Assembly (NCBI GenBank): GCA_002839335.1
Contig: PGXU01000029.1
Span: 1-33,369 of the forward strand
DNA length: 33,369 bases
Origin: Spirochaetae bacterium HGW-Spirochaetae-4
GTDB lineage: Bacteria > Spirochaetota > Spirochaetia > Sphaerochaetales > Sphaerochaetaceae
Direction: 5' to 3'
A program made the translations under genes and the position numbers. How positions within the stretch are numbered: position 1 is the first letter of the stretch; every line of letters starts with the position of its first letter. Of the stretch, positions 6,912-31,181 are shown one piece after another. The notes below the pieces were generated by a model. It was given only the letters and a program-made list of their open reading frames with translations. It was not told the DNA's origin and ran no database searches.

Positions 6912-6924
6912 GGTGAAATTTACC
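6912..6924 (+). promoter_or_regulatory. Predicted PspF enhancer site for the first psp operon
   Basis: GGTGAAATTTACC is an imperfect palindrome (GGT.AA.TT.ACC). Its centre lies 118 bp from the -24 GG of the pspA1 sigma-54 promoter and 143 bp from the inferred start site, exactly the geometry found at the second psp operon. The site is inferred from sequence similarity and position. Confidence 0.6.
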
Positions 6925-7033
6925 AACACCCTTGCCACCACTTCCCGGTTTTGCTTGGACTAACCATGCATGAATTATCATCTAATCCAAAAAATGTGTA
7001 AAATTTGCTATTCAGATGCAGGTTTTACAAGAG

Positions 7034-7050
7034 TTGGCACGGTGTTTGCA
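7034..7050 (+). promoter_or_regulatory. Sigma-54 promoter of pspA1-pspC1
   Basis: TTGGCACG-N4-TTGCA matches the -24/-12 consensus, with GG at 7036-7037 and GC at 7048-7049 separated by the required 10 nt. The inferred start site is near 7061, leaving a leader of about 55 nt with a strong AAGGAG before pspA1. Confidence 0.9.
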
Positions 7051-9179: not shown

Positions 9180-9185
9180 AGGTGG

Positions 9186-9215
9186 ATTCTACCATAGGTT
9201 GGTCAATTTCACCAA
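9186..9215 (-). promoter_or_regulatory. pspF promoter (leaderless type)
   Basis: On the minus strand TTGGTG (9215-9210), an 18-bp spacer and TAGAAT (9191-9186) precede the ATG by 6 nt. The -35 hexamer lies partly inside the predicted PspF site at 9201-9213, as expected for autorepression. Confidence 0.65.
9201..9213 (+). promoter_or_regulatory. Predicted PspF enhancer site for the second psp operon and pspF operator
   Basis: GGTCAATTTCACC is centred 118 bp upstream of the -24 GG (143 bp upstream of the inferred start), identical to the spacing at 6912. The extended 18-mer matches the element at 30332 at 16 of 18 positions. It overlaps the -35 of pspF. Confidence 0.65.
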
Positions 9216-9322
9216 TATCTATCTGCCACACAAGCAGGACAGATTCAATACAAAGTACCACAAATCCTGCTTGCAAGAGAGTTAAGAATGTTTCATAGTG
9301 TTCTGGGGAGTTTTTTCTGATG

Positions 9323-9339
9323 TTGGCACGGTTCATGCT
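9323..9339 (+). promoter_or_regulatory. Sigma-54 promoter of the second psp operon
   Basis: TTGGCACG-N4-ATGCT has GG at 9325-9326 and GC at 9337-9338 with 10 nt between. The inferred start is near 9350, about 47 nt before pspA2. Confidence 0.88.
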
Positions 9340-9396
9340 TTATACAAGATAGAGAGTATGAAGATGCTCTGATATCAGTTGTACAAGGAGTAGAAT

Positions 9397-29544: not shown

Positions 29545-30177
29545 TCAGCGGTTCCTCCGCCACTCCTCGATGGGATTGAGTTTCAATCTGAACAGGAAGT
29601 ACAGGTACGCGAATCCGAACCCCGCCAAGTGGGTCAGGTGTGCCACGCCCCGGGTACTGCCGAATACCTGGTTGAACATTTCCAACAACGTATAGAGGAT
29701 TACCAGTATGGGCGCCCGCAAGGGGAATATGCCGAACACGAATACCCTCGCGTACGGATAGAGGACGGCAAAGGCGAACAGCACGGCATAGATCGCACCT
29801 GATGCGCCGACCAGAATCACATTGGTTCCCGCACTTACGTAGGATATCAGGGAGAATACACCCGATAGCGTGCCGGTGAGCAGGTAGAACAGCAGGAATT
29901 CCTTGCTGCCGATGCGACGTTCGACCTGTGTGCCGAACATGTACAATCCCAGCATATTGAAGAGGATGTGGGTGAAATCGGCATGGACGAACATATAGGT
30001 GAAGACTTGCCAGTACCAGTGGCGGTATACGATGTAGCTCGGCACCATGGCAAGGTATCCGTACGCCTGCGGCAAGACCATGGTGACGAGGAATACCACG
30101 ACGTTCGCAATGATCAATTTCAGCGCGACGTTGGTATAGGAATAGCGAAACTTTTTGTTCAACAATGTATTGGCCAT
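29545..30177 (-). CDS. Rhomboid-family intramembrane serine protease
   Basis: A 210-residue membrane protein with six predicted helices. The catalytic Ser126 is in the GASG motif (VGASGAIYA) and the catalytic His183 is in LTHLAGFGFAY; the conserved HILFNML (His70, Asn74) of helix 2 is present. Rhomboids cleave transmembrane segments of other proteins; the target is unknown. The ATG at 30177 lies 6 nt after TATGTT, so the mRNA is probably leaderless. The upstream reading from 30270 would precede the transcription start. Its promoter is divergent from the sigma-54 transcript at 30395. Confidence 0.92.
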   Translation of the reverse strand: MANTLLNKKFRYSYTNVALKLIIANVVVFLVTMVLPQAYGYLAMVPSYIVYRHWYWQVFTYMFVHADFTHILFNMLGLYMFGTQVERRIGSKEFLLFYLLTGTLSGVFSLISYVSAGTNVILVGASGAIYAVLFAFAVLYPYARVFVFGIFPLRAPILVILYTLLEMFNQVFGSTRGVAHLTHLAGFGFAYLYFLFRLKLNPIEEWRRNR

Positions 30178-30183
30178 AGCAGA

Positions 30184-30212
30184 AACATAGCTATCGGCGA
30201 ACGATTCGTCAA
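30184..30212 (-). promoter_or_regulatory. Rhomboid gene promoter (leaderless type)
   Basis: On the minus strand TTGACG (30212-30207), a 17-bp spacer and TATGTT (30189-30184), followed by 6 nt and the ATG. Confidence 0.7.
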
Positions 30213-30331
30213 TTGTGCATATGTTGCGCGTGGAGATTACGCTGTAACATTTTTTCACACCATCTCGCACTTCCCCTGACCCTAAAATTCAACCAGATGT
30301 CATGCTTTTACATCGAAATACCAATAAAATA

Positions 30332-30344
30332 GGGCAATTTCACG
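30332..30344 (+). promoter_or_regulatory. Predicted PspF-type site near the third sigma-54 promoter
   Basis: GGGCAATTTCACG continues into AATAT and matches the pspF/pspA2 site at 16 of 18 positions. Its centre lies 57 bp upstream of the inferred start, closer than the 143 bp at the psp operons. Confidence 0.55.
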
Positions 30345-30367
30345 AATATTAGGCACTTTTCACAAAG

Positions 30368-30384
30368 TTGGCACGGACAATGCA
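30368..30384 (+). promoter_or_regulatory. Sigma-54 promoter of a short non-coding transcript
   Basis: TTGGCACG-N4-ATGCA has GG at 30370-30371 and GC at 30382-30383 with exactly 10 nt between. The inferred start is near 30395. No ORF with a ribosome-binding site follows before the terminator at 30441-30501. Confidence 0.85.
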
Positions 30385-30394
30385 TATAGATTTG

Positions 30395-30501
30395 TACAGA
30401 GCAACAGTTTTTTCATACCTCCTTTAGTGTGATTTTCCTTGGAGGCCAGCGGAATTCTCTCCCCACCCCAACAACCCTCCCGCTGGCCTCCTCCCTTTTT
30501 T
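30395..30501 (+). ncRNA. Candidate sigma-54-dependent small RNA (or rlmE leader)
   Basis: The 371-bp gene-free stretch between the rhomboid and rlmE genes holds a sigma-54 promoter and, about 50-105 nt after its start site, an intrinsic terminator. The predicted RNA is about 107 nt. It has an unstructured 5' part containing ACCTCCTTT (30418-30426), identical to the anti-Shine-Dalgarno core of 16S rRNA, and a terminator hairpin with a C-rich 27-nt loop (CCCCACCCC). CU-rich single-stranded regions of this kind commonly pair with ribosome-binding sites. The CCTCC (30419-30423) could also pair with GGAGG at 30441-30445, competing with the terminator, so an attenuator ahead of rlmE is the alternative. 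Confidence 0.6.
30441..30501 (+). terminator. Terminator of the sigma-54 short transcript
   Basis: GGAGGCCAGCGG (30441-30452) pairs perfectly with CCGCTGGCCTCC (30480-30491) across a 27-nt loop, followed by TCCC and six T residues. The long loop and the 4-nt gap before the T-run are unusual. Confidence 0.75.
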
Positions 30502-30512
30502 CCCCTCCCCGG

Positions 30513-30541
30513 TTACCACATCAACCAATTCATGATAGAAT
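30513..30541 (+). promoter_or_regulatory. rlmE promoter (leaderless type)
   Basis: TTACCA (30513-30518), a 17-bp spacer and TAGAAT (30536-30541), then 7 nt to the rlmE ATG. It lies just after the terminator of the sigma-54 transcript. Confidence 0.65.
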
Positions 30542-30548
30542 TCCACCC

Positions 30549-31181
30549 ATGGCGAAAAGCAGACGTGATACAGCCGATTCATATACGCTCCGAGCACGCA
30601 AAGAGGGCTATCCTGCCCGTTCCGTGTACAAATTGGAAGAGATCCAGAAGAACCACGCATTGGTCCGTCCCGGCAACACGGTCCTCGATGTCGGGGCCGC
30701 TCCAGGTAGTTGGACACTCTATACGCACAGGGAGCTTATCAAAGGTAATGGAACCATCGTGGCGGTAGATCTCAATCCCTTGGGATTGCACCCGGTTCCA
30801 CCGACGGTAATCAGCTATATAGGGGATGCCTTCAGTGCCGAAATCAGGGAAAAATTGGTGTCGCACGGGCCCTACGATGCCATAATCAGCGACGCCGCCC
30901 CCATGACGACCGGCAACCGTTCGGTCGATACTTCCCGCAGCGAGTGGTTGGCGGAGAGCGTGTTGGCGTTGGCTGAGGAACACCTGAAGGTGCATGGGAA
31001 CCTGGTCATCAAGATATTCCAGGGCGGAGGAGAAATCGAGATCCTCAAGCGGATGCGCCAATTGTTCGTCAAGGCAAAACCATTCAAACCAAAAGCAAGC
31101 CGATCCGACTCCTTCGAGATTTTCCTCGTCGGGTTGAACCGGCTTCCATCAAAACCAGTCAGCTCTTCAGAGCCTCTTTGA
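30549..31181 (+). CDS. rlmE: 23S rRNA (uridine(2552)-2'-O)-methyltransferase
   Basis: RlmE (FtsJ/RrmJ) methylates U2552 in the ribosomal A-loop late in 50S assembly. The 210-residue protein has the SAM motif VLDVGAAPGSWT and the full catalytic tetrad Lys28, Asp115 (SDAAP), Lys155 (VIKIF) and Glu190 (SFEIF), matching E. coli Lys38/Asp124/Lys164/Glu199. The start ATG at 30549 follows a -10 box by 7 nt with no Shine-Dalgarno site; the in-frame extension to 30429 would run through a terminator. The 3' end overlaps mscS by 23 bp, tail to tail. Confidence 0.94.
   Translation: MAKSRRDTADSYTLRARKEGYPARSVYKLEEIQKNHALVRPGNTVLDVGAAPGSWTLYTHRELIKGNGTIVAVDLNPLGLHPVPPTVISYIGDAFSAEIREKLVSHGPYDAIISDAAPMTTGNRSVDTSRSEWLAESVLALAEEHLKVHGNLVIKIFQGGGEIEILKRMRQLFVKAKPFKPKASRSDSFEIFLVGLNRLPSKPVSSSEPL

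Follow-up and report, generated by a model that had tools for sequence, protein, structure and literature searches.

The locus analyzed here is, on comparison of genome sequences, a real and previously uncatalogued gene family of predicted small RNA (sRNA) in Sphaerochaeta-type spirochaetes. In the stretch of 33,369 nucleotides that was analyzed (the window), it appears as a stand-alone gene with its own putative sigma-54 promoter, terminator and palindromic enhancer pair. We consider it probable, at about 60%, that the product is a stand-alone trans-acting sRNA, induced by sigma-54 and a response regulator termed RR-A under envelope or efflux stress, that masks ribosome-binding sites independently of Hfq. 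It would then probably lower the translation of certain genes under stress. The elements of the RNA unit are the following.

30369-30384, plus strand: sigma-54 promoter TGGCACGGACAATGCA, with GG at 30370-30371, N10, and GC at 30382-30383
30395-30501, plus strand: predicted small RNA, its start placed by the spacing from −12 to +1; the match to model R1 covers 30396-30500
30396-30406, plus strand: conserved 5' segment ACAGAGCAACA
30413-30432, plus strand: weak hairpin I, UCAUAC-CUCCUUUA-GUGUGA, with the anti-Shine-Dalgarno core in its loop
30417-30425, plus strand: anti-Shine-Dalgarno segment ACCTCCTTT
30441-30491, plus strand: terminator hairpin, a perfect 12 bp stem (30441-30452 with 30480-30491) and a 27 nt loop
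30457-30469, plus strand: C-rich loop CTCTCCCCACCCC, inside the terminator loop
30496-30501, plus strand: T-run of the terminator

A preliminary description of this DNA had placed a −24/−12 element at 30370/30382, followed by a short terminated RNA with a 12 bp stem and no open reading frame between, and had pointed to an anti-Shine-Dalgarno segment and a C-rich loop. The coordinates are right and all of these elements are present; the promoter and the terminated RNA are kept in relatives, and the anti-Shine-Dalgarno segment is exposed. Between the promoter and the end of the terminator the predicted transcript is ∼106 nt long, and no credible open reading frame was found within it in the window. 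The interval from promoter to stem holds ACAGAGCAACAG, then a U-run and then ACCTCCTTT (30417-30425). The RNA from 30394 to 30503 folds with −32.2 kcal/mol (z = −5.6 relative to shuffled sequences). Given the −24/−12 element at its start, we infer that the RNA is transcribed, and in a sigma-54-dependent manner. The promoter pattern has four matches in the window at up to one mismatch where 2.2 are expected, a count that is not significant by itself. In 33 kb such a pattern can be expected by chance, so comparison had to decide, and it is conservation that settles the reality of the promoter.

The first loci of relatives were gathered with rlmE as bait, and in many of them the unit was present, single or in tandem. 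A covariance model trained on nine copies detected the sRNA in 116 of the 139 genomes of the family Sphaerochaetaceae, in 17 of its 22 genera, with one to four copies each. Two to four copies often lie in a row, every one of them equipped with a promoter and a terminator. One such array (L056, G118:C1:2227971-2229153) has four copies between the rhomboid gene and rlmE, each with promoter and terminator. Two copies are present in a cultured relative, Sphaerochaeta halotolerans 4-11 (L154). When a sample covering the whole phylum was searched, 31 matches reached the chosen threshold, all of them in the Sphaerochaetaceae. By the pattern of promoter plus anti-Shine-Dalgarno segment, the sRNA turns up in f1, f3, f4 and f17, four families of this class, and the reversed-pattern control gave no match in 395 genomes. 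The named records that carry it are Sphaerochaeta, Sphaerochaetaceae and uncultured Spirochaetales; pattern matches outside the spirochaetes (L087, L088 and L101, for example) are single scattered records that resemble chance. The promoter and the hairpin, whose conservation in related genomes the preliminary description had made one of its tests, recur in the 116 of 139 together with the anti-Shine-Dalgarno segment.

The sigma-54 element TGGCA[CT][AG]N5TGC[AT] lies no more than 36 nt upstream in 41 of 42 distinct copies at loci that either the RNA model or rlmE had retrieved, although this count is not perfectly blind since a few of the nine sequences behind the model had first been noticed by their promoter. 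The one exception has a single changed base, and in two control stretches the element occurs in 0/42. Covariance analysis of homologous loci, which had been proposed earlier, shows that the terminator stem covaries throughout. Two-sided changes are found at 12/12 pairs among 103 distinct sequences, with 97.5% of cells paired. The covariation score is 0.753, compared with 0.210 for shuffled and no more than 0.17 for slid alignments. No family in Rfam 15 matches the sRNA at gathering scores, a search that covers LhrC, cuckoo/ar14 and Qrr if they are in Rfam 15, and at E ≤ 10 there were only two chance matches to lncRNAs. A description of the sRNA was not found in the open-licence papers searched.

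The anti-Shine-Dalgarno segment is both conserved and accessible. CUCCU is present in 102 of the 103 distinct RNAs, and the mean probability that the segment is unpaired is 0.89, compared with 0.55 for the whole RNA. The surrounding hairpin I is more variable. It is longer in some relatives and missing in others, where the anti-Shine-Dalgarno segment is single-stranded. The sequence of its stem changes while pairing is kept, being UCAUAC/GUGUGA in the window and UUUUUCAUGC/GUAUGAAAAA, UUUUUCAUAC/GUGUGAAAAA or UUUUUUCAC/GUGAAAAAA elsewhere. Taken singly, 29 of 93 copies give p < 0.05 for hairpin I, so that its support is confined to some clades. The C-rich loop of the terminator also belongs to a subset, about 42 of the 103 distinct RNAs as judged by one loop pattern. 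Paralogues within one genome differ in these two parts, so subtypes of the sRNA exist. A second copy elsewhere in the genome of another species, G002 (L325, on G002:C48), has UGUCUCCUUU in place of UACCUCCUUU, possibly changing the range of targets.

The downstream neighbor of the sRNA is rlmE, which lies outside the RNA unit.

30513-30541, plus strand: sigma-70-type rlmE promoter TTACCA-17-TAGAAT, its −10 box 7 nt before the ATG
30549-31181, plus strand: rlmE

In most relatives the RNA precedes rlmE, and in this one genome a CCTCC-GGAGG pairing is possible. It might therefore be the 5' leader of rlmE, in which CCUCC pairs with the GGAGG arm and prevents termination, and attenuation of this kind had been suggested in the preliminary description. 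We regard it as extremely unlikely. The rlmE promoter sits downstream of the sRNA terminator, and in nearly all of 25 relatives a −10 box is found 6-7 nt before the rlmE ATG (TAGAAT in the window, TATAGT or TATACT in others). Such a conserved box adjoining the ATG suggests that rlmE is separately transcribed, starting at the ATG, so that its mRNA appears to be leaderless. Moreover, tandem copies of the sRNA each have a promoter and a terminator, several copies are located away from rlmE, and the 5' arm of the terminator is variable and usually not GGAGG.

Upstream of the promoter lie the following elements.

29545-30178, minus strand: rhomboid-type membrane protein, the divergent neighbor in most relatives
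30214-30230, plus strand: upstream enhancer site 1, TGTGCATATGTTGCGCG, with three mismatches to TGTGMAANNNTTKCACA
30243-30259, plus strand: upstream enhancer site 2, TGTAACATTTTTTCACA, with two mismatches to TGTGMAANNNTTKCACA, 29 bp from site 1

The 17 bp palindrome TGTGMAANNNTTKCACA lies upstream of the sRNAs, often twice with a separation of 28-29 bp. With up to two mismatches it is present in 87 of 111 copies where about 0.65 would be expected, a count that leaves out two copies whose upstream sequence is cut off. Both sites of the window are imperfect, and for site 1 relatives have better versions at the corresponding position, with two mismatches in L004, one in L015 and none in L020. Site 1 abuts a possible −35 element (TTGACG) of the divergent rhomboid gene (window 30184-30230), so the activator might also affect expression of that gene.

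Within the host genome another sigma-54 promoter is preceded by an exact and a one-mismatch copy of TGTGMAANNNTTKCACA, at distances of 164 and 98 bp, the two palindromes being 66 bp apart. This promoter heads an operon (L259, G000:C23:26946-34341) encoding an outer-membrane efflux protein, an HlyD-type protein, an ABC ATPase, a MacB-type permease, a histidine kinase and RR-A. The same arrangement of exporter, histidine kinase and RR-A behind a double enhancer is repeated in the second species, G002 (L260, on G002:C18). RR-A is a sigma-54 response regulator, with a receiver domain, an AAA+ domain containing GAFTGA and a Fis-type helix-turn-helix. All of the sRNA-positive genomes sampled have orthologues of RR-A whose recognition helices are nearly identical, and in one of these genomes, G008, RR-A and one other are the only clear sigma-54 activators found. 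From the shared enhancer at its own operon, the GAFTGA motif, the orthologues throughout and the activator set of G008, we infer that RR-A is the best candidate activator of the sRNA. Many genomes hold RR-A alongside other sigma-54 activators, so that RR-A is tied to the sRNA by common sites and by its presence, rather than by observed binding. The sRNA is thus provided with both enhancer sites and a candidate sigma-54 activator, and its promoter is probably under the control of a two-component system. An exact palindrome also occurs at 1674-1690 of L261 (G000:C116), before a protein with InlB/Listeria-Bacteroides-type repeats; no sigma-54 promoter pattern was seen near it.

Control could instead be exerted by another activator, such as a second widespread sigma-54 response regulator that is encoded beside a DinG-type helicase and is also found in sampled sRNA-positive genomes. 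This seems rather improbable, given that the sRNA-type enhancer pair stands at the RR-A operon of two species, with none found near the DinG-adjacent regulator.

The preliminary description had assigned the sRNA to the PspF regulon, on the basis of an element matching the psp enhancer at 16 of 18 positions. PspF would bind this nearby upstream element, and envelope stress would induce the RNA together with pspA. PspF is a sigma-54 activator and is encoded in the same window, and the match can be seen in the sequence, but it is the palindrome's outer arms that hold the mismatches (AGGGCAATTTCACGA rather than TGGTNAANNTNACCA). At 30331-30345 the middle of the psp site is shared, and both arms are broken by three mismatches. 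With only 38 bp to the −24 element downstream of it, the match lies too near the promoter, and it was not seen in G002 or in the third species of the genus. The psp promoters themselves have TGGTNAANNTNACCA in 16/16 cases, at −89 to −177, and the sRNA-type enhancer TGTGMAANNNTTKCACA in 0/16. Conversely, a PspF-like site is present in about 6 of the 111 sRNA copies, which is near the expectation from shuffling. Finally, G008 and G018 carry the sRNA, and no PspF-like activator was detected in either. Membership of the PspF regulon is therefore very unlikely. What survives of the earlier proposal is control by envelope stress, now by way of the two-component system beside the exporter, and the two sigma-54 regulons of the family, those of PspF and RR-A, are separated by their enhancer sequences. 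The PspF enhancer TGGTNAANNTNACCA is found in the window at 9180-9340 and 6920-7050, the latter including a second PspA-type promoter at 7035, and also in the loci L317-L328.

How might the sRNA act? Hfq (PF17209) was found in 0 of 15 genomes by a search whose control detects it in E. coli and four others, so that action without Hfq is expected. We propose that an envelope or efflux signal would activate the histidine kinase and RR-A, which are encoded behind the MacAB/TolC-like exporter. Activated RR-A would bind the paired palindromes and switch on the sigma-54 promoter, and the sRNA would be made. Its exposed ACCUCCUUU segment could then pair with the Shine-Dalgarno regions of target mRNAs, blocking ribosome binding without Hfq. 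The C-rich terminator loop may provide a second pairing site in this subtype. The tandem paralogues of relatives vary in sequence around the same core, probably widening or dosing the set of targets.

Two pattern searches for targets gave no convincing match. TAAAGGAGGT before ATG was not enriched, its 9 matches standing against 28 of the reversed pattern, an imperfect control. The other pattern, complementary to the C-rich loop and joined to an ATG, gave one site conserved in two species, inside a coding region and not at a start; that region is zinc-dehydrogenase-like on reading of its translation. On this outcome the RNA could also be a decoy rather than a base-pairing repressor. By mimicking the 3' end of 16S rRNA, or through its C-rich loop, it would sequester a protein or the Shine-Dalgarno sequences of many mRNAs, without specific targets. 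The CCUCCUU core is the universal feature, and in some copies UCACCUCCUU has the letters of the usual bacterial 16S 3' end (the assembly contains no 16S rRNA of the host). The lack of Hfq in the genomes sampled and of enriched long complementarity before start codons would also fit a decoy. Yet specific contacts are suggested by the conservation of the 5' segment and by a C-rich loop that is clade-specific, and with only one to four gene copies a global titration would need very high expression. We therefore judge a decoy to be unlikely. It is less likely again that the RNA is a stress-induced mimic of the 16S 3' end, with which sigma-54 and the two-component system would flood an Hfq-less cell to lower Shine-Dalgarno-led translation; leaderless mRNAs, such as that of the neighboring rlmE, should then stay unaffected.

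Masking of the ribosome-binding sites of particular mRNAs by an RR-A-controlled sRNA is the reading we prefer. The regulatory RNAs of these spirochaetes are apparently little known, and Hfq is absent from the genomes sampled. With a multicopy sRNA that is spread through the family and has a named candidate activator, a defined enhancer and a constant seed, RNA control without Hfq can be tested directly in spirochaetes. If the proposal is correct, control of anti-Shine-Dalgarno sRNAs by stress sensors arose independently in Listeria, alphaproteobacteria and spirochaetes.

Three known systems can be compared with the spirochaete sRNA. In promoter logic the nearest is Qrr1-5 of Vibrio, multicopy sRNAs each having a sigma-54 promoter activated by an NtrC-class response regulator. 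The Qrr RNAs are Hfq-dependent and are not known to have an anti-Shine-Dalgarno core; their sequence and targets differ, and the spirochaete sRNA has no Rfam match. The nearest in anatomy are the alphaproteobacterial 'cuckoo' or CcsR-type RNAs, which have anti-Shine-Dalgarno sequences in hairpin loops (the motif CCUCCUCCC in several of them), with conserved loops, variable stems and copies in a row (PMC3927594, PMC10253847). Those of Rhodobacter have an RpoH-type promoter and are co-transcribed and processed with a DUF1127 gene (PMC3927594, PMC10253847), whereas in the spirochaetes a separate sigma-54 promoter and terminator belong to each copy. The nearest in function is LhrC1-5 of Listeria monocytogenes, a multicopy sRNA induced by a two-component system under cell-envelope stress, whose CU-rich sites lie in a stem-loop, in a single-stranded stretch and in the loop of the terminator, and which blocks translation of a surface-protein mRNA and does not require Hfq (PMC4132741). 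The two have in common multiple copies and redundant CU-rich sites and, as proposed here for the spirochaete sRNA, two-component control under envelope stress and dispensable Hfq. They differ in that LhrC belongs to another phylum, has no sequence or Rfam match to the spirochaete sRNA and has known targets. The Listeria regulator, LisR, is not known to be a sigma-54 activator. With no sequence match to LhrC, cuckoo or Qrr, the spirochaete sRNA would work like these RNAs but is not a member of their families.
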